In this document: one piece after another, positions 9,624-42,332 of the stretch
Layout of the letters: the number at the start of each line of letters is the position of its first letter
Numbering within the stretch: position 1 is the stretch's first letter
NCBI GenBank assembly: GCA_002796835.1
Contig: LUGL01000053.1
Span: forward strand, 743-60,279
Length of the DNA: 59,537 nucleotides
Direction of reading: 5' to 3'
Origin: Elainella saxicola E1
GTDB lineage: Bacteria > Cyanobacteriota > Cyanobacteriia > Elainellales > Elainellaceae
Made by a program: the position numbers and the translations under genes
The notes under the pieces: generated by a model
Database searches by the model: none
The model's input: the letters and a program-made list of their open reading frames with translations, nothing else
Told to the model about the DNA's origin: nothing

Positions 9624-10439
9624 CTATAGCAAATTAGGGTCAATGCCCATCGATCGCAACTGCTCTGCCAGTCTGGCCGCCTTTTGTTCAGCAGATTCAG
9701 CTCTCAGCTCAGCAGATTTGGCTCTCAGCTCAGCAGATTCGGCTCTCAGCTCAGCCAATGTAGCTCGCTCAGTGCCAGTTAACAGCAAGTTGCCTTCCAG
9801 ATCCCACCAGCGTAGCCAGGATTGGGTTTGATTCTGATAAGATCCCTGCCAAACACCAATTTCAATTCCCATGGGTTCGATTGGATAGTGTCCTCTAACA
9901 TTTGGCAACATCCGCTGATAGCTAGCACCCACTAGCTCATACATTTCCAGTTCCCCCTGGCTGATCAAGAAAATGCCGTAATAGGGAATGTGGATAATTC
10001 GCTCATACACCCAAAATTTTCCGGGCCGCGTCGATCTATCTGTTGTCGCCAGAAGTGGGGTTTGATCACGCTCCTCACTGCCGTCACCTGAAGCAAATTC
10101 CACGGCGATCGTTGGCGCAATATATTCTCGCCACAGCACATAAGAACGACGAATTTGACCATCCAGATTTGGCGGCACATCTGGTACATAAAACCAATCC
10201 GGAGCCTCTGCCCCTTTTTCGGGCGGATCGACTTCTCGCCAGTAAATGCCACAATCTTGACCGATCGCATAGTCCCCATTCGGATGAAGTCTTTCTAAAA
10301 CAGGACCGATCGAATCTGTTAGCAGCAAGCTCTGGGGATGTTCTTGAAAGTTTTTCACAAACGAACCGTCTGATTCAGGGAGCTGTGTATGGTCGGGGAA
10401 GGGAGGGGGTAAATAGTCCTGCTCTTGAATTTCAGCCAT
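9624..10439 (-). CDS. Uma2 family (DUF820) restriction-endonuclease-like protein
   Basis: 271 residues, parallel along its whole length to the Uma2 protein at 7343-8107 (shared VKNFQEHPQSLLLT, IGQDCGIYWR, GHYPIEPM). The acidic core IAVEFASGDGSEERDQ is present. The C-terminal coiled coil consists of heptads of the type AELRAES and AELRAKS, encoded by near-identical 21-bp repeats. The heptads differ from those of the paralogue, so the tails expanded independently after duplication. DNA substrate and role are unknown. Confidence 0.88.
   Translation of the reverse strand: MAEIQEQDYLPPPFPDHTQLPESDGSFVKNFQEHPQSLLLTDSIGPVLERLHPNGDYAIGQDCGIYWREVDPPEKGAEAPDWFYVPDVPPNLDGQIRRSYVLWREYIAPTIAVEFASGDGSEERDQTPLLATTDRSTRPGKFWVYERIIHIPYYGIFLISQGELEMYELVGASYQRMLPNVRGHYPIEPMGIEIGVWQGSYQNQTQSWLRWWDLEGNLLLTGTERATLAELRAESAELRAKSAELRAESAEQKAARLAEQLRSMGIDPNLL
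9686..9758 (-). repeat. 21-bp tandem repeats encoding heptads
   Basis: Three near-identical 21-bp units start at 9686, 9707 and 9728, with a fourth partial unit at 9749. The common core on the plus strand is CTCAGCAGATT. They encode the AELRAES-type heptads of the Uma2 protein tail. Confidence 0.85.
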
Positions 10440-12161: not shown

Positions 12162-12893
12162 TTGGAAAGCCATAAAGAAAAAATTCTGGTCGTTGATGAT
12201 GAAGCCAGCATCCGACGCATTTTAGAGACCCGCCTTTCCATGATCGGCTATGACGTAGTTACGGCAGCGGATGGCGAAGAAGCGCTCGAAACATTTCGCA
12301 ATGCTAATCCTGATTTAGTCGTGCTGGATGTGATGATGCCCAAGCTGGATGGGTATGGGGTTTGTCAGGAGCTTCGCAAAGAATCGGATGTGCCCATCAT
12401 CATGCTAACGGCATTGGGAGATGTGGCCGATCGCATCACAGGCCTGGAACTCGGTGCTGATGACTATGTGGTAAAGCCTTTCTCGCCAAAAGAGTTGGAA
12501 GCTCGGATTCGTTCGGTTCTGCGTCGCGTCGAAAAAGTCGGAACCTCTGGAATCCCCAGCTCAGGTGTCATTCATATCAACAGCATCCGCATTGATACTA
12601 ATAAGCGGCAAGTCTATAAAGGAGATGAGCGGATTCGGCTCACAGGCATGGAATTTAGTCTATTGGAACTGCTGGTGGGGCGATCGGGCGAACCGTTCTC
12701 ACGATCTGAAATCCTGCAAGAGGTTTGGGGCTACACGCCAGAGCGGCATGTAGATACGCGAGTGGTAGATGTCCATATCTCCCGGCTGCGGGCCAAACTC
12801 GAGGATGATCCGAGCAATCCGGAATTAATTTTGACTGCACGCGGCACAGGCTACCTATTTCAGCGGATTGTGCCACCTGGCGAAACAGAGTAA
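12162..12893 (+). CDS. rpaB: OmpR-family response regulator RpaB (Ycf27)
   Basis: 243 residues from a TTG start; cyanobacterial RpaB proteins use the same (M/L)E-HKEKILVVDDEASIRR beginning. The receiver domain has the acidic pocket (DDE at 12-14), phosphoacceptor Asp56 in VVLDVMMPK and Lys in VVKPFSPKEL. The C-terminal winged helix includes EVWGYTPERHVDTRVVDVHI and GTGYLF. RpaB is the essential partner of the NblS (Hik33) kinase and controls high-light genes through HLR1 sites, and is also linked to phycobilisome-photosystem coupling. It is followed 80 bp later by plsX on the same strand, so lipid synthesis genes may be partly read from its promoter. Confidence 0.96.
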   Translation: MESHKEKILVVDDEASIRRILETRLSMIGYDVVTAADGEEALETFRNANPDLVVLDVMMPKLDGYGVCQELRKESDVPIIMLTALGDVADRITGLELGADDYVVKPFSPKELEARIRSVLRRVEKVGTSGIPSSGVIHINSIRIDTNKRQVYKGDERIRLTGMEFSLLELLVGRSGEPFSRSEILQEVWGYTPERHVDTRVVDVHISRLRAKLEDDPSNPELILTARGTGYLFQRIVPPGETE

Positions 12894-26594: not shown

Positions 26595-26760
26595 CATAAA
26601 CAACGTGGCGATCGGTGGGTGTTCTGACTTTCAAAGTTTTGAGTTTTGAGTTGTGAGAGTCGAATGACTCAACATGCAACCCTCAAAATTCACTTACAGT
26701 TGCGGGACAGCGGCAGACTCTCACTGCACTTTCCCCGTTACCTCTGATGGTTGATCTCCA
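26595..26760 (-). promoter_or_regulatory. Cobalamin (B12) riboswitch
   Basis: On the minus strand, the hallmark B12-box region CTGTCCCGCAACTGTAAG is present near 26690-26716. The 5' side has AGAGGTAACGGGGAAAGTG (about 26729-26748). The 3' side has AGTCAGAACACCCACC (about 26615-26630), the expected return strand. It ends less than 20 bp before the hupE start, consistent with B12 blocking translation or elongation. A variable AT-rich arm (about 26635-26685) lies between. Boundaries are approximate. Confidence 0.9.
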
Positions 26761-26842
26761 CCAGAACCGATCGAGACTTCCGACTATACCACTTCAGTCC
26801 AGTGCGGCTGCAAAAAGTTGTGAAATTTATCGTGGAGGAAGT

Positions 26843-35900: not shown

Positions 35901-38858
35901 TTAAGTCGGGTTGCTCTCAAAGCCAGTAGGCTCCTGCCATGCCTGCTGAAATTGGGAATAGGGTAGTTGCTCAGCGCAATACCAGAGTAGTTTGTAACAC
36001 TCTAGCGCCTGTTGCGATCGATCGCCCTGTTCCATCGCCTGTCCAAAGTGCCGCAATCGGGCAGTCAGTAGCGGCAACTGCTCATCCAGAATGACAGCTT
36101 TCAAATATTCGGCAGTGCGTTTGTAAAAAGAAGGTGGGTGATCAGTCAATAACAACTGCATCAAAGTCTTGATTGCCTGAGCATGTCCGGGCTGCAGTTT
36201 GCCCAACTGATAGGCCAATCGCCGCTGAGCCTCACTGCTTTGGGCCGCAGCCAAACGTTGACTAAGATTCTCAATCGCCCGATCGAGTGCAAGACCTGTT
36301 GGGGATTGATGAAGGCGTTTGCGGGAGCGGCGAGAGATCTGTTGTTGCTGGAGTATCACCTGAGCTTGAGAAGATTGCTCCAGGGTTGAGTCAGGACAGA
36401 ATTGCAGTAGATTCTTGGCAGCCTGCTGGCGGAGATGGGGATCTTCAGCCGTTTCGGCTAGCTGAGTTAATGTTGCAATGGCGATCAAATTATTGGCATC
36501 AATCTTGCCCAAACTATAGGCCGCCTTACGCCGCAGTGCTTCTGATTCCAGCGTTTGGCTGAGTTTTTCTAATCTAGCAATCGCGATCGCATTTCCCGGA
36601 TCGACTTTGCCCAATGACTCGCTAACTTGGATTTGAAAGATTTCTTGCTCGATCTGTTCTAACAATTCGGTGAGGGTAGCGATCGCGATCGGATTGCCTG
36701 GATCCATGATTTTGCCCAGACTATAGGCTGACGTCCAGCAAGCAAATAGATTTTGAGCTGTACTGACAAACTCTTCTAAGGTTGAGATGGCTAACGGGCG
36801 ATCGGTTTGCAGCAAAGCTACTCTGGCTCCTTCTTGAATCGGCAGCGGATAAATTTTCCAGCTTTTTAGCTTGGTATCCCATTCACCAAATCGCCAGTGA
36901 ACCAGTCGCCGCACAATTTCTTTGGCTTGCACACAATCCGGACATTCCGCTAACCCAGCCGCTGCCAGAAAAACTGCCTGGTAGCCATAAAAGCCGCCAC
37001 AGTCATCTTCAAACTGAGTCAATTCGACAATGAAATCCTGCTTATCGGTAGCCGAAATGTTCGATCGCCCCAACCACAATAGAATCGTTTGTCGCCAGTG
37101 CGTCGTCAGGACAGGCGGTGCAGTGCCACTCGTGAAAAAATGCCAATCTGTGATCGCCTGCGCCGCAAAATATTCTTGAAAAGTCGGGTGATAGAAGGCG
37201 TAGATTTTATCGCCTGTTTTAGAAACACCCACCTGATTCAACCAGCCCAACTGCAACGCCAGCGATAGCTGATCGAGGTTTTCAGGTCCCAAGGCTTGCA
37301 CGGCAAAAAGATGCGGCAATCGAAATTTAATTTCTTCCTGTTGCAAAGCTTTCAGAGCCAACGTTCCAAGTGCCTGATTAAGCTGGTGTCGTTGAGCAAA
37401 TGTGGTCGGAAACCGATCCTGCTTCCATTCATAAATCCGATCGATAAACTGCTGATACAGAGCTGCTCTGGTTTGGGGTAAATTTCCCTGTGCTAACGAC
37501 CAGGAGCGACAGAGCAAGGCTAAGCGCAAAGGATTTCTGACCGCATCTTTCAGGCGTTTGCGTTTGAGCTGATCCAGTTCGGCACGGAGTTGATCGCCTA
37601 AGGTTGGATTGGTTTGGAACCAGCGTTGAATGAATTGGCTGACTTGATCGGCAGAATCGGAGCAGGGGAGTGAGGGAGCAGGGGAGGAAGCATTCACGCT
37701 AAAGCTGAGATTGCGATAAACCGAAAATGTCTCTAACGTATTTTTGCCTGCATCCCACAGGTTTGATCGGCAGGTGAGCACCACATGGGCATCGGCAATC
37801 CAGCCTCGGAGCTGGCGGCTAATCATCGACAGGGCCAAACTAGCATCAATCGCCATTTCATCAACCGCATCCAGTAGCAGCCAAACGCGGCCCTGGTTGA
37901 ATTGCTGGCCGAATTCAAGCTGCAATTCAGTTGAAACGACAATCTGCCGCGTCGCAGTTTTCAGCCAGTCATTCAGTAAATATTGCTCCAGCGTTTGTCC
38001 TTGCAGATCGGCGAGTGAGATCCAGATTGGCAGCAATTGTCGATCGAGCAAATAGGCCGCAACTTTTTGCAGCAGCGTGGTTTTGCCCGATCCCGGTTCA
38101 CCGACGATCGCAATTCGCTGCGCCTCCGATCCTGACTGCAACAGAAAAGCCAAAAACTGATCGATCGCGATCGTCTGTTGCGCCTCACTTTCTTCTACGT
38201 CATCCAATGTGGCATCTTTGGTTGAAAGCTCAGATCGATCGCTTGACCGACGTTCCACTTCCAGCGGCACATAGACCTGCGCTAACTCAAAGGCAACACC
38301 ATCGCCGATCGTCAAGGGATTTGTAGTGAGCCGCTCATATTGTTGATCTTTCAAGCTGGATTGGCAGAGTTGTAGCCAGAAATCAGGAGAAGCAGGAGCA
38401 GGGGAGATGGGGGGAGCGGGAGCGACCTGTTTAGATTTTTGGGGACGACGTTGTTCCCATTCAGTGTCGAAGCACTGCAGATTGGCCGATCGATCGTTGC
38501 GAGAGTGCCACAGATTCAGGGTGAAGTGCCAAACTTCGGAGCCGCTACGGTGAGGGCGGTTGTCTTCCAGGATGCTGATAAAGTCTTCCAGACGTTTGAG
38601 GGCTTCTTTAATCTGATCGATCGTCAAAGGCTGGTTAGCCAGTTTCATCAAGGCTTCCAGAAATCGCACTTTGGTCCGCACCACCAAACGGCGATCGCTT
38701 TGCCAGTGAGTTTGAATTTGCGATCGTAAATTGTCTAATGCCTTTTCATCACAGCCCAATGCCTCACAGTCCAATTCATTGCTGGCAAAGTCGATCAGAA
38801 CGGCAAGAAATTGCTGGGTACGTTTTTTGGCTTCAGGACCGTAGTTGGGACGCGGCAT
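35901..38858 (-). CDS. NACHT NTPase with HEAT-like repeats (STAND protein)
   Basis: 985 residues. Residues 1-140 are a helical domain found at the front of many cyanobacterial signalling proteins (VVRTKVRFLEALMKLA, WHFTLNLWHSR). A Pro-rich linker (145-158) follows. The NACHT core runs from about 225, with Walker A GEPGSGKTT (253-261) and Walker B RVWLLLDAVDEM (about 324-335). From about 640 the chain has repeated units like SLGKIDANNLIAIATLTQL and SLGKVDPGNAIAIARLEKL, a HEAT-like superhelix. Such STAND proteins act as signal-sensing switches, and several bacterial NACHT proteins defend against phage. No effector domain or partner gene is evident beyond the N-terminal helical domain. Confidence 0.88.
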   Translation of the reverse strand: MPRPNYGPEAKKRTQQFLAVLIDFASNELDCEALGCDEKALDNLRSQIQTHWQSDRRLVVRTKVRFLEALMKLANQPLTIDQIKEALKRLEDFISILEDNRPHRSGSEVWHFTLNLWHSRNDRSANLQCFDTEWEQRRPQKSKQVAPAPPISPAPASPDFWLQLCQSSLKDQQYERLTTNPLTIGDGVAFELAQVYVPLEVERRSSDRSELSTKDATLDDVEESEAQQTIAIDQFLAFLLQSGSEAQRIAIVGEPGSGKTTLLQKVAAYLLDRQLLPIWISLADLQGQTLEQYLLNDWLKTATRQIVVSTELQLEFGQQFNQGRVWLLLDAVDEMAIDASLALSMISRQLRGWIADAHVVLTCRSNLWDAGKNTLETFSVYRNLSFSVNASSPAPSLPCSDSADQVSQFIQRWFQTNPTLGDQLRAELDQLKRKRLKDAVRNPLRLALLCRSWSLAQGNLPQTRAALYQQFIDRIYEWKQDRFPTTFAQRHQLNQALGTLALKALQQEEIKFRLPHLFAVQALGPENLDQLSLALQLGWLNQVGVSKTGDKIYAFYHPTFQEYFAAQAITDWHFFTSGTAPPVLTTHWRQTILLWLGRSNISATDKQDFIVELTQFEDDCGGFYGYQAVFLAAAGLAECPDCVQAKEIVRRLVHWRFGEWDTKLKSWKIYPLPIQEGARVALLQTDRPLAISTLEEFVSTAQNLFACWTSAYSLGKIMDPGNPIAIATLTELLEQIEQEIFQIQVSESLGKVDPGNAIAIARLEKLSQTLESEALRRKAAYSLGKIDANNLIAIATLTQLAETAEDPHLRQQAAKNLLQFCPDSTLEQSSQAQVILQQQQISRRSRKRLHQSPTGLALDRAIENLSQRLAAAQSSEAQRRLAYQLGKLQPGHAQAIKTLMQLLLTDHPPSFYKRTAEYLKAVILDEQLPLLTARLRHFGQAMEQGDRSQQALECYKLLWYCAEQLPYSQFQQAWQEPTGFESNPT

Positions 38859-39122
38859 TGGATCGCTAGGTTACAAAGTTGCTCACAGCAAATGATGCAC
38901 TTTTCAAAGTCCCCCAAAATTGGGGGATTTAGAGGGCTAACCAACAAATCAAGTTAGGGGAATCCCCTGGGTCTTCCTCTGCCCCTCACTCGGAAAGATT
39001 TACAGTGACTGCATCTTAGCCTTTTTATCAGCAATTCGCCTGAGGGAAGTTGGACTGCCTAATCTAGAGTCATCAAACGCAAGGAACCCCAAAGGAACCG
39101 CAAAGAGAACGTTAACTGACAT
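38859..39122. other. Intergenic region with palindromic repeat upstream of the tRNA-like RNAs
   Basis: CCCCCAA and TTGGGGG form a 7-bp palindrome around AA at 38911-38926, part of a very common cyanobacterial intergenic repeat. AGGGGAATCCCCT lies at about 38956-38968. The promoter of the RNA genes at 39123 onward must lie in the last 100 bp, but no convincing -10/-35 pair was seen. Confidence 0.5.
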
Positions 39123-39249
39123 GTGGCGGCTCGCTTAATGGTAAAGCACCACTTTTGCCTACTGGGACGAATGATCGAGGGTTATCGCTTTAACGATCCT
39201 CCCCCTTGATCGCCGGAGATGCGGGTTCGACTCCCGCGCTGCTACACCA
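39123..39249 (+). ncRNA. tRNA-like RNA 1, anticodon arm replaced (putative Y-RNA-like)
   Basis: The tRNA parts are clear: acceptor GTGGCGGC (39123-39130) pairs with GCTGCTAC (39238-39245). The discriminator A and an encoded CCA follow (39246-39249). The D arm is GCTT/AAGC with AATGGTA, and the T arm is GCGGG/CCCGC closing TTCGACT. Between D and T arms lie 73 nt instead of about 22. This region contains TTTTGCCT, GGACGA and GAGGGTTATCGCTTT in the same order as RNA 2, plus a 9-bp stem GATCGAGGG/CCCTTGATC. No normal anticodon stem-loop can be drawn. Position directly before a TROVE (Ro60) gene suggests a Y-RNA relative; YrlA-type bacterial Y RNAs are known tRNA mimics. Confidence 0.65.
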
Positions 39250-39254
39250 AACAC

Positions 39255-39378
39255 TGACAGATAGTTCAATCGGTAGAACGCCTAAAACATCCTTATTCAC
39301 TTTTTGCCTTTTAGGACGATGAATGAGGGTTATCGCTTTGGATGCGGGAGGTTGTGGGTTCGAATCCCACTCTGTCAA
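39255..39378 (+). ncRNA. tRNA-like RNA 2, anticodon arm replaced (putative Y-RNA-like)
   Basis: The acceptor TGACAGA (39255-39261) pairs perfectly with TCTGTCA (39371-39377). The D arm is GTTC/GAAC, and the T arm GTGGG/CCCAC closes TTCGAAT. CCA is not encoded. The anticodon arm is replaced by 74 nt. A coherent fold stacks CCT/AGG, CATCC/GGATG and TTATTCA/TGAATGA, with a large one-sided bulge holding GGGTTATCGCTTT and an apical loop holding TTTTGCCT and GGACGA. CCTAAAA/TTTTAGG could pair instead. The shared core with RNA 1 lies at 39302-39339. It starts 5 nt after RNA 1 and ends 66 bp before the TROVE gene on the same strand. Confidence 0.65.
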
Positions 39379-39444
39379 CTTTCACACTTGTGAATCGATT
39401 GATTTAACTTTGCACGATCGCCCGTAAGGGCCGAAGGAGATGTT

Positions 39445-41049
39445 ATGGTGAACTATCAATTTTTTCTGAACCGCCAGCAAACGCCGCAAACTCAGCCAAT
39501 TCCAGACCGAGAAGCTGAAATGATCCAGGGTCGATCGGGTGGCTATATGTTCAAAGCAGACCTGTGGCAGACCTTGCGTCGATGTCTGTTGATCGGAACT
39601 GCAAACAGCACTTATTACGCTGGAAAGCATGAGCTAACGAATGACTTCGTCAATGTTCTAGAAAAGGCGATTCAGGCCGATCCGCAGCGAGTTGCTTCTG
39701 AGATTCTCTATGCCTCGGATGGTCGATCGATCAATAACAGTGCGCCAATTTTTGCGCTGGTGATTTTGTCGATGGGCGATGCCCCAGAAGCCAAGCGAGC
39801 CTTTCAGGAAATCTTTTCGCAAGTGGTGCGAACCGGAAGCCACTTCTATGAATGGATGAGCTATACCAAGTCGGTACGCGGTTTCGGCAAGATTGTGCGG
39901 GAAGCAGGGCAAAACTGGTTGGCGCGTCAGGATATCAAAGGGTTGGCCTATCAGTTGTTGAAGTATCAGCAGCGGCAAGGATTTTCTCATCGTGATGCTT
40001 TACGGCTATTCCATGTGAAGCCACCCACCGATGAGCATAACCAACTTTTCCAATGGGTGTTAAACGGCTGGTCCGAATTGCCACCCCAAATTCCATCAGA
40101 AGCGCTGTCGCAAATCTGGTGGTATGAGTGGCTGAAGCGACACCCAGAGCAAACCCATCAGGCGATCGCTCAAGGTCGTTTGACTCACGAAATGGCGGCT
40201 CCCGTCGGCAAGATGGATCGGCAAGCTTGGCAGCTCTTGTTTAACGAAATGCCGAGCGGTGCTTTACTGCGGAATCTGGGGTCTTTAACTGAATTGGGAG
40301 TTTTGCGAGCCGATGCCCGTAAAAATCTCGATCGGGTTCAGGCAGTGTTGAATAGCCGCAATCATCTGCGCAAGGGACGCATTCATCCGATCGATGTGTT
40401 GAAGGCGTTGAAGACCTATCAGTCGGGCGGTCAGTTAGGCCGCAGTCAAAAGACCTGGACGCCGGTACCGCGTGTTATTGACATTTTGGAAAAAGCCTTG
40501 GAACTATCCTTCGATGTGTTGCAGCCAACCGGCAAGACTTTTCTACATGCGGTCGATGTGTCGGGTTCGATGTCCTATTACTCGGTGAGTTCGATCGGTC
40601 TAAGCTGCTGTGAAATTGCCACCACAATGGCACTCGCCACCGCAAAGGCTGAAAAGAACTACAGGATTCTTGGATTCGCGGATGATTTCCGTGATCTGGG
40701 AATTTCCAAGCGAGATTCTTTCAACTCGGCAATTCAGAAGGCCAGCAACCAAAACTTTGGTGGCACAGATGCCTCCGTGGCTTACCGTTGGGCGATCGAT
40801 CAGCGCTTTCATGCCGATGTGTTTTGCTTCTGGACCGACTGCGAAAGTTGGGCAGGCTATCAGCATCCCAGCCAAGCATTGGTGGAATATCGCCGCAGGG
40901 TGAATCCCAACGCCAAAGCGGTTTATGTGACGCTGGCTCCCTACAACATCTCGCTGGTGGATCCACAAGATGCCAACTCCTGGGATCTGGCTGGCTTCGA
41001 TCCGAGTTCACCTCGCCTGATCCAAATGCTGGCAATGGGTGAGTTGTAG
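39445..41049 (+). CDS. rsr: TROVE domain protein, Ro60/Rsr orthologue
   Basis: 534 residues, ATG preceded by GAAGGAG. The TROVE HEAT-like ring covers about residues 20-350 (GGYMFKADLWQTLRRCLLIG near the start, EWMSYTKSVRGFGK, MPSGALLRNLGSLTELGV). The C terminus is a vWA-like domain with the metal-site motif DVSGSMS (about residues 372-378) and a threonine/aspartate set in FGGTDAS and FWTDCES. Ro60 proteins bind the ends of misfolded RNAs in the ring and Y RNAs on the outer surface, and with PNPase form an RNA-degrading machine in Deinococcus. The two tRNA-like RNAs upstream are its likely partners. No rtcB or rtcA is nearby. A strong terminator follows. Confidence 0.93.
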   Translation: MVNYQFFLNRQQTPQTQPIPDREAEMIQGRSGGYMFKADLWQTLRRCLLIGTANSTYYAGKHELTNDFVNVLEKAIQADPQRVASEILYASDGRSINNSAPIFALVILSMGDAPEAKRAFQEIFSQVVRTGSHFYEWMSYTKSVRGFGKIVREAGQNWLARQDIKGLAYQLLKYQQRQGFSHRDALRLFHVKPPTDEHNQLFQWVLNGWSELPPQIPSEALSQIWWYEWLKRHPEQTHQAIAQGRLTHEMAAPVGKMDRQAWQLLFNEMPSGALLRNLGSLTELGVLRADARKNLDRVQAVLNSRNHLRKGRIHPIDVLKALKTYQSGGQLGRSQKTWTPVPRVIDILEKALELSFDVLQPTGKTFLHAVDVSGSMSYYSVSSIGLSCCEIATTMALATAKAEKNYRILGFADDFRDLGISKRDSFNSAIQKASNQNFGGTDASVAYRWAIDQRFHADVFCFWTDCESWAGYQHPSQALVEYRRRVNPNAKAVYVTLAPYNISLVDPQDANSWDLAGFDPSSPRLIQMLAMGEL

Positions 41050-41066
41050 CCATGTCAATCTAACAG

Positions 41067-41105
41067 CCTGTCCGATCGCAATTTGCTCTATCGGACAGGT
41101 TTTGC
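41067..41105 (+). terminator. Rho-independent terminator of the TROVE gene
   Basis: CCTGTCCGAT (41067-41076) pairs with ATCGGACAGG (41090-41099), a 10-bp stem with a 13-nt loop, followed by TTTTGCTTTATT. Confidence 0.9.
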
Positions 41106-41134
41106 TTTATTAATTAAAAAAATATTAAGCGCAG

Positions 41135-41164
41135 CAAAAAACCTGCCCCATAATGAGACAGGTT
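41135..41164 (-). terminator. Rho-independent terminator of sigA
   Basis: On the minus strand ACCTGTCTCAT and the GGGGCAGGT side form a stem at 41141-41164, followed by a run of six Ts (41135-41140). It lies 23 bp after the sigA stop. Confidence 0.85.
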
Positions 41165-41186
41165 GATTGAACAGCAATGAAATCGT

Positions 41187-42332
41187 TTATCGAATGTATT
41201 CTTTCAAAACGCTATTCCGGTTAGGATGACGCAGTTTTCGCAGCGCTTTTGCTTCGATCTGACGAATCCTTTCGCGAGTCACGTTAAAAATCTGGCCGAT
41301 TTCTTCCAACGTTTTCATCCGACCATCATCTAAGCCATAGCGAAGGCGTAAAACATCCCGTTCCCGTGGGCTGAGGGTTCCCAACACGTTTTCCAAATCT
41401 TCCCGCAGCAAGTTCTTAGAAACCTGATCTTCTGGTGTTTCACCATCGGATTCGATGAAGTCTCCCAGGCGTGAATCTTCCTCTTTACCGATCGGCGTTT
41501 CCAGCGAGATAGGAAGCTGAGCTGATTTGGCAATAAATCGGAGTTTCTCGATCGTCATTTCCATGCGAGTTGCAATCTCTTCTTCAGTGGGTTTGCGGCC
41601 CATTTCTTGAGACAGCAGTTTCGTGGTTTTCTTGATGCGAGAGATTGTTTCGTAGAGGTGAACCGGCAAACGAATCGTCCGAGATTGATCGGCGATCGCA
41701 CGAGTAATGGCCTGACGAATCCACCAGGTTGCATAGGTGGAAAACTTGTAGCCTTTTTCGTGATCGAACTTCTCAGCTGCCCGAATCAGACCTAAACTGC
41801 CTTCCTGAATCAAATCCTGGAAAGACAGGCCCCGATTCATATATTTTTTGGCAATGGAGACGACTAATCGCAGGTTAGATTGCACCATCTTTTCTTTGGC
41901 TCGCCGTCCTTCATGCAGACGACGCCGGAACTTAGGCAGGGGCTGATTCACTTCATTTGCCCATATCTCTAAATTCCTTTCGAAATCCTGAGGCGTTCGA
42001 TCGAGCCGTTCACACAATTTATCGCGAATTCGCTCTAGCTCCAGCAAATCAGCAATTTTACGCGCCAACTCAATTTCTTCATCCGCTCTCAGCAGACGAA
42101 TCCGACCAATCTCTTGCAGGTAGAGGCGGATCGAATCCTCTGTATAGTGCTTCTTTTTGGCTTGGGTTCGGCGGCGAGCACCTCCTTTCACCGCTTTGCC
42201 ATCGCCATCCTCCTCGTCGTCAGGCTGGGCATCAAACAAATCGTCTCGATCATCTCCTTCGTCGATCAAGAGTTCTTCAAAATTACTCTCGGTCGGATCA
42301 AGGGTTACGAGTACGTCATTAGCCTGGGTCAT
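41187..42332 (-). CDS. sigA: Principal RNA polymerase sigma factor SigA (RpoD)
   Basis: 381 residues. An acidic N terminus ([22 protein letters not shown]) is followed by region 1.2 ([16 protein letters not shown]), region 2 ([54 protein letters not shown]; both in outline), region 3 and region 4 ([39 protein letters not shown]). This is the group 1 housekeeping sigma factor, reading -10 and -35 promoter elements. GGAGCATGAGGAG precedes the ATG. It is convergent with the TROVE gene. Confidence 0.97.

Follow-up and report, generated by a model that had tools for sequence, protein, structure and literature searches.

Probable tRNA-ended Y RNAs in tandem upstream of a cyanobacterial Ro60 gene

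The stretch of DNA analysed here (59,537 nucleotides (nt) of Elainella saxicola E1, contig LUGL01000053.1; hereafter the window, part of contig C192 of an 8.7-Mb genome) raises the question of what two transfer RNA (tRNA)-like RNAs, lying in tandem directly upstream of a Ro60 gene and on the same strand, might be. The original prediction was that they partner the Ro protein, with a complete acceptor end and with the Ro-binding module placed in the anticodon region. Linkage to Ro60 and covariation across relatives support this prediction, and the two RNAs are very probably tRNA-ended Y RNAs of the neighbouring Ro60. Each unit would consist of a tRNA body (acceptor stem, D arm and T arm) that has taken up, behind the D arm, a Y helix for Ro60 binding. 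A short stem, in most units with a GNRA loop, appears to cap this helix, and UUAUC comes next; one type of unit (type B) would then add a mini anticodon-like hairpin.

The predicted coordinates were verified on the sequence, together with the 5-nt spacer between the RNAs (39250-39254), the 66 nt from the end of RNA 2 to the Ro60 start codon, the stretch of 73 nt (RNA 1) or 74 nt (RNA 2) between the D and T arms, and the CCA encoded on RNA 1. The features, all on the + strand, are given below, where R1 is a model built from 28 units, RNA 2 included, and class 1 denotes an acceptor of 8 base pairs (bp) with an encoded N-CCA.

39123-39249, +, RNA 1 (type A, class 1); sequence, R1 match and type-A helix test
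39123-39130 / 39238-39245, +, RNA 1 acceptor, 8 bp; sequence
39125 and 39243, +, RNA 1 third acceptor pair, G39125.U39243; sequence
39133-39147, +, RNA 1 D arm; sequence
39173-39180 / 39204-39211, +, RNA 1 Ro helix; sequence and type-A helix test
39182-39186, +, RNA 1 UUAUC; sequence
39221-39237, +, RNA 1 T arm; sequence
39246, +, RNA 1 A73; sequence
39247-39249, +, RNA 1 encoded CCA; sequence
39255-39378, +, RNA 2 (type B); R1 match (training row) and covariation of 28 units
39255-39261 / 39371-39377, +, RNA 2 acceptor, 7 bp; R1 match and covariation
39264-39279, +, RNA 2 D arm; R1 match and covariation
39291-39298 / 39321-39328, +, RNA 2 Ro helix; R1 match and covariation
39307-39309 / 39313-39315, +, RNA 2 short capping stem; R1 match and covariation
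39330-39334, +, RNA 2 UUAUC; R1 match and covariation
39334-39346, +, RNA 2 mini anticodon hairpin; R1 match and covariation
39354-39370, +, RNA 2 T arm; R1 match and covariation
39378, +, RNA 2 A73, CCA not encoded
39420-39439, +, leader hairpin GCCC-GUAA-GGGC, then CGAAGGAG; survey of loci for the hairpin plus purine motif
39435-39439, +, Shine-Dalgarno within CGAAGGAG; part of the leader element
39445-41049, +, Ro60/Rsr gene, 534 amino acids; Pfam TROVE and vWA_Ro60, Protein Data Bank (PDB) sequence search, tree

Both RNAs carry a Y-RNA core, ACGA..GAGG-GUUAUC, inside the insert between the D and T arms. RNA 2 runs in the order D arm, 3' strand of the Ro helix CCUUAUUC, capping stem, 5' strand AGGACGAUGAAUGAGG, GUUAUC, mini hairpin (3 bp with a 7-nt loop, 3' of UUAUC) and T arm, so that the partner strand lies upstream; in RNA 1 it lies downstream, as CCCUUGAUC (39203-39211). 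The acceptor stem, D arm and T arm are kept in both RNAs as had been claimed, but the claim that the anticodon arm is replaced did not hold for RNA 2, which keeps the mini hairpin. Folding z-scores were -3.3 for RNA 1 and -2.5 for RNA 2. With model R1, RNA 2, a training row, scored 124.6 bits and RNA 1, which lies outside the training set, 55.2 bits, compared with 44.5 bits for an ordinary tRNA-Gly of the window. Searches with the existing models gave a divided result: the Rfam tRNA model, applied to 451 bases, found RNA 1 at 34.8 bits, above its cut-off of 29, whereas RNA 2 reached only 21.9 bits in another alignment (39320-39378), and the match to the YrlA model discussed below was likewise sub-threshold. 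ARAGORN, which also reports transfer-messenger RNA (tmRNA), called neither RNA in the window and no unit in 27 further loci, and neither RNA was among the matches of an Rfam scan of the whole window at gathering scores. The units do not have the normal anticodon arm of a tRNA, with its 5-bp stem. The full-length TROVE protein expected downstream is present, with Pfam domains TROVE and vWA_Ro60; a PDB sequence search matched it to 2NVO (Ro sixty-related protein; E 8.9e-78) and to 1YVP and 9NEN (60-kDa Ro; E < 1e-65), and its nearest relatives are cyanobacterial Ro60 proteins.

Compensatory changes in the stems across relatives proved to be numerous. They were scored in 28 type-B units, taken from 30 non-redundant units among 90 type-B units of normal length after exclusion of two badly aligning rows. 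Paired cells amounted to 93.3%, against 38.8-52.0% when the partners were slid by 1-3 columns, and 21 of the 32 pairs had changed on both sides, against 11.0 in shuffled alignments (0/500 shuffles as high). By element these both-side changes affected 7/8 pairs of the acceptor, 3/4 of the D stem, 4/5 of the T stem, 4/4 of the capping stem and 1/3 of the mini hairpin. Only 2/8 pairs of the Ro helix had changed in this way; its sequence is mostly conserved, as expected of a protein site. RNAalifold without guidance gave nearly the same fold. For the type-A helix, pairing to the downstream strand reached 7.6 of 8 in 15 units, compared with 6.9 for re-dealt partners (0/2000 as high); the type-A alignment, A4, leaves out L089, L056 and L078 and includes L131, L045 and L082, the last of which begins 4 nt late.

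That homologous loci retain such RNAs beside the TROVE gene was seen in a survey of 81 loci, namely the window and the best 80 of 115 cyanobacterial Ro60 loci from a contig search (L033-L112). A purpose-written parser returned 204 rows, three of which were dropped by eye as chance matches, leaving 201 units in 78/81 loci: 160 of type B, 18 of type A and 23 undecided, the type being undecided in 23/204 rows and many of the Nostoc type-B calls having a small margin. The rows are related, many being from Nostoc, and the counts are not independent events. Among the parser-negative loci, inspection by eye found one unit in L087 and a 3' half only in L077, and neither eye nor parser saw a unit in L106. 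The hairpin after UUAUC has an exact CGN/NCG 3-bp stem with a 7-nt loop in 81 of the 157 type-B units examined, the other 76 deviating; 80 of the 81 strict loops have U at the U33 position, and the 'anticodons' vary. A GNRA loop capping the Ro helix was matched in 147/201 units. The laboratory strain Picosynechococcus sp. PCC 7002 (L131, plasmid pAQ7) carries its Ro60 gene on a plasmid, preceded by three units of which the last is type A. Up to 10 units were parsed per locus, the ten of L097 (Prochloron) extending over about 3 kb upstream of Ro60, with the farthest doubtful. Some units of L045, L092, L036, L043 and other loci are 133-140 nt long, with one of 173 nt each in L045 and L092; by eye, several such long units apparently have an extra variable hairpin between the D arm and the Ro helix.

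A new model built from such RNAs and searched against cyanobacteria, as had been proposed, placed its long matches beside Ro60. R1 was run on 386 genomes of the phylum, with about eight candidates scored per genome and matches listed to near E 5e-10. Many short matches of about 75 nt, resembling ordinary tRNAs, score up to about 57 bits. Among the matches listed, those of at least 105 nt occurred in 33 genomes, all of them within the 42 that have a vWA_Ro60 hit, and in 0/344 others (compared by eye). In 33/33 genomes these listed long matches lie on the Ro60 contig and within about 3 kb of the gene. Nine genomes have a vWA_Ro60 hit and no listed long match (G004, G018, G021, G032, G041, G120, G127, G224 and G360), and in several of them the hit is weak or partial.

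The acceptor end of one group of units has a more specific character. Class 1 comprises 69 units and the other main class, class 2, 68. The third acceptor pair of class 1 is G.U in 51/69 units, G-C in 12 and A-U in six, and a strict rule that every class 1 unit has G.U is wrong; the pair is G.U in 0/68 class 2 units. All 51 G.U units also have A73, and G3.U70 with A73 and CCA is thus found in 51/201 units, RNA 1 among them; many of these class 1 rows are close Nostoc relatives, and 51 units are therefore not 51 events. Elsewhere in the class 1 acceptor there is at most one G.U per pair, except where the stem adjoins the T stem (33 G.U and one U.G). The G.U is present in all 13 type-A units of class 1, including RNA 1 (L078 is shortened). 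The tail follows position in the array: 68/69 units with 8 bp and N-CCA are upstream units, and 55/70 'N73-C' units are the last unit. G3.U70 together with A73 marks substrates of alanyl-tRNA synthetase (AlaRS), including tRNA-Ala and tmRNA. Two features make processing or charging by tRNA enzymes plausible here, the presence of CCA in the gene and the restriction of G3.U70 with A73 to one class, and it is conceivable, as a tentative suggestion from these identity elements, that class 1 units such as RNA 1 are alanylated by AlaRS, possibly protecting their 3' end.

Could the array instead be an ordinary permuted YrlA that has been read one step out of phase? Each RNA would then have its ends in the Ro helix, taking its T arm from unit 1 and its D arm from unit 2, with an acceptor hairpin spanning the spacer. 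The Rfam YrlA model (RF02553) does match at 39218-39279, spanning both RNAs, at 22.8 bits against a cut-off of 69, and it gives weak matches in 53 of the 386 phylum genomes, with 0/386 passing the cut-off; that cut-off is a weak criterion, as the permuted RNAs of phage and Nonomuraea also fall below it (best 52.1/69 bits). However, over 123 neighbour pairs the acceptor strands paired better within their own unit (6.92/7) than with the strand of the next unit (5.61), the cross pairing being poorer in 93, equal in 27 and better in three. The median spacing between units is 67 nt, CCA is encoded, and 12 loci have a single parsed unit, of which L082 and, by motifs, L051 hint at a second and L061 and L098 start near a contig end. 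Moreover, the units have an open acceptor and a short loop that caps the Ro helix, leaving no ends there, whereas YrlA ends in the Ro helix and closes its acceptor as a hairpin. An out-of-phase YrlA is therefore very unlikely. Of similarly low probability is the idea that the tRNA-like folds are cis-acting only, that is, unreleased control elements in the 5' untranslated region of the Ro60 messenger RNA (mRNA). Their position on the same strand 66 nt upstream would fit, as would a conserved leader hairpin at the ribosome site, but the several units per locus, the encoded CCA and the full acceptor pairing favour release, and the leader hairpin is a separate element that is present in L106, where no unit was seen.

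The least probable reading, which we would hardly credit, is that of tRNA genes or pseudogenes with small introns. The available part of PMC5733544 describes cyanobacterial tRNAs with 'group I introns' 22-49 nt long; two of these, in the tRNA-Gly gene of Nostoc PCC 7107 and the tRNA-Lys gene of Gloeocapsa PCC 73106, bear the motifs TTxxC, CTTGxCT, AAGxC, GAAGAAT and GG. These two introns share their motifs in the order of the type-B Y core, and 16/201 units match that order as a short-gap pattern. Against introns stand the linkage to Ro60, the Y core, a paired helix inside the 'intron' and an anticodon-like stem of only 3 bp, and by general knowledge such a length is far too short for a group I intron. 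Judging by motif order, we think that these two published tRNAs are probably misread Y RNAs themselves.

The reading of the units as tRNA-ended Y RNAs of Ro60 has its own difficulties. The parser requires acceptor pairing, and the acceptor pairing counts partly follow from that rule, the covariation depending on it to a smaller degree; to this are added the undecided type calls, the relatedness of the rows, the 27 equal and three better cross pairings and the match of the YrlA model across both RNAs. A search of the + strand from 38860 to 41190 gave no promoter-like site, and promoter and terminator matches at the locus were not above the shuffled level. G127, a genome of the window's class, has a distant, phage-like Ro60 with a permuted unit nearby, found by the parser. 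As regards alanine identity, there are the class 1 units with G-C or A-U at the third pair; of the three units in PCC 7002, one combines G3.U70 and A73, its stem having 7 bp and its tail being CCCA instead of CCA; and the acceptor of tRNA-Ala has 7 bp, from which the 8 bp of class 1 differ.

If the units are indeed tRNA-ended Y RNAs, the array and the Ro60 mRNA would be co-transcribed, as strand and spacing suggest. Mature RNAs with tRNA ends would then be released by RNase P and 3' processing, with CCA added to those units that do not encode it. The Y helix would bind Ro60/Rsr, to which the shared core and the gene linkage point, and the tRNA body would be the effector side, a tether or mimic by analogy with descriptions of YrlA or Y RNA with polynucleotide phosphorylase (PNPase), here with a real 3' end. 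The available passages of PMC7790460 and PMC8394870 describe both roles, PNPase tether and tRNA mimicry, for known Y RNAs.

The Ro60 mRNA leader adds a further element. A 4-bp hairpin followed by a Shine-Dalgarno-like motif at most 45 nt from the Ro60 start codon is present in 76/82 loci (the 81 and PCC 7002), compared with 73/4100 shuffled leaders, a contrast that overstates the surprise since the pattern was defined after the leaders had been inspected. Better evidence for the hairpin is its fixed position and its compensated stem variants (GCCC/GGGC, GCCU/AGGC and CUCC/GGAG); the stems are mostly of the first two kinds, and the loop is GNRA in 58/76. Six loci do not show the pattern (L034, L088, L097, L098, L100 and L111), and in the last four of these the hairpin is present and the required purine motif missing. 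There is a likeness between the leader hairpin and part of the Y core, namely the capping stem together with the 5' strand. This repeat of the capping hairpin before the Shine-Dalgarno suggests Ro60 autoregulation, and one possible form of it, which we offer with reserve, is that free Ro60 binds its own leader hairpin and blocks the ribosome site until enough Y RNA has been made. It would be rather unlikely, as a whole, that all of these elements operate together, with units excised by RNase P and finished with CCA, class 1 units charged by AlaRS in the manner of tmRNA, the charging state or EF-Tu binding gating PNPase access to the Ro particle, Ro60 repressing its own mRNA by way of the leader hairpin, and open tandem arrays giving rise to permuted YrlA. 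Cellular function, charging and autoregulation of the units are put forward as hypotheses.

Permuted, YrlA-like units with a rotated element order were found by the parser at actinophage, Nonomuraea and Rhizobium loci and on further viral contigs; Bosea yielded one or more through Rfam, and all of these score under the Rfam cut-off. In the Rhodococcus phage Trina (L158, 1143-1351), a pseudo 'tRNA-OTHER' is annotated where a Y-RNA-like unit precedes the Ro gene. Three viral contigs also carry open units, three in L169, two in L191 and one in L187; an attempt to find the host of L169 gave no Photo_RC or Phage_lysozyme match in the records of these contigs. In phage L154 a T arm was additionally parsed as open; it fits a permuted hairpin better. 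Near the Ro60 gene of G044 (L162), a basal genome of the phylum with a contamination estimate of 7%, lie an open unit at 10294-10419 (R1, 74.3 bits) and a permuted one at 12419-12520 (Rfam, 38.4 bits); the parser confirms neither, and both rest on R1, Rfam and inspection by eye. The permuted unit of G127 is on the minus strand of L165, with its T arm at 2315 and an acceptor hairpin closed by GCAA. A tree of 45 Ro60 rows places the open rows of cyanobacteria together with L169 on one side (100/100), and the open label needs two changes, against 15.3 when shuffled; L165 was labelled 'none' in this tree and should read permuted, and the labels of L167 and L168, in which the parser finds neither form, were taken from shorter pieces. 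Judged by G127, topology seems to track the Ro60 lineage rather than the host, and there is room for a single origin of the open form. The idea that CCA in YrlA acceptor loops is a trace of an open ancestor was dropped, as it is found in only 5/35 distinct permuted units (L156, L158, L160, L161 and L194).

In Chlorogloeopsis PCC 9212 a TROVE transcript 'increased dramatically' with erythromycin, according to the available text of PMC6424891; in far-red coculture it was up by log2 4.5, together with an RtcB family gene (3.5), according to that of PMC11423583. These rises imply that such a locus responds to stress, and the TROVE genes concerned are probably orthologous to that of the window, by way of PCC 6912 of the same species (L093). 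RtcB matches are present elsewhere in the window's genome; at G000:C40:28738-30889 they are divided between two open frames of the same strand, with about 1.1 kb between them, which may mean an interrupted gene. A divergent gene (35901-38858, - strand) immediately upstream of the array encodes a 985-amino-acid protein with EAD4, NACHT, HEAT repeats and NCC-H, a STAND-type conflict protein, and the Rfam scan found a cobalamin riboswitch at 26597-26786 (- strand; 52.3 bits).

In the literature searched we found no report on cyanobacterial Y RNAs; the founding papers lie outside that search, and novelty is provisional. Chen 2014, which reportedly covers more than 250 species, may have cyanobacteria among them. 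A widespread unpermuted counterpart of YrlA makes the origin of the permuted form testable, as tandem duplication would give that form directly; if this is true, tandem open-form arrays would be a natural route to permuted YrlA, and G044 appears to hold both forms on its Ro60 contig. The purpose of tRNA mimicry also becomes testable, since the effector side would have a free 3' acceptor end that can be assayed for CCA, for charging and for binding to EF-Tu.

Among known RNAs, tmRNA resembles the units in having a tRNA-like domain without a normal anticodon arm, and class 1 shares its G3.U70, A73 and CCA; it differs in that ARAGORN calls none in the array, where a tag reading frame and pseudoknots were not searched for. 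The core of the units also resembles the Ro60-binding strand of vertebrate Y RNA, which to our knowledge has no tRNA-like domain. The likeness is greatest to YrlA (RF02553; Salmonella YrlA, PDB 6CU1), with which the units share the 5' strand of the Ro helix with GUUAUC, the mini hairpin, T arm, acceptor, D arm, a CUAAA-like linker and the 3' strand of the Ro helix, as well as the linkage to Ro60 read on actinophage and Nonomuraea loci; their core, ACGA..GGUUAUC, resembles the GGGUCGA..CGGUUAUC of the Y RNAs of those loci. YrlA-type RNAs run from the 5' strand through the mini hairpin, the T arm, the acceptor hairpin and the D arm to the 3' strand, and the stem formed by the 5' and 3' ends holds Rsr, according to the accessible part of PMC8394870. 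As read from sequence, the element order of the units is a circular permutation of this, with the acceptor opened and the Ro helix closed, and in the text available of PMC11472068 the Y RNA of 6CU1 is alignable to tRNA by circular permutation. The units do not have the permuted topology of YrlA, with ends in the Ro helix and a closed acceptor. It is thus well supported, at the level of sequence comparison, that they represent a real, conserved, tRNA-ended variant of the bacterial Y RNA, which would function in the manner of YrlA and has its parts but not its defining topology.

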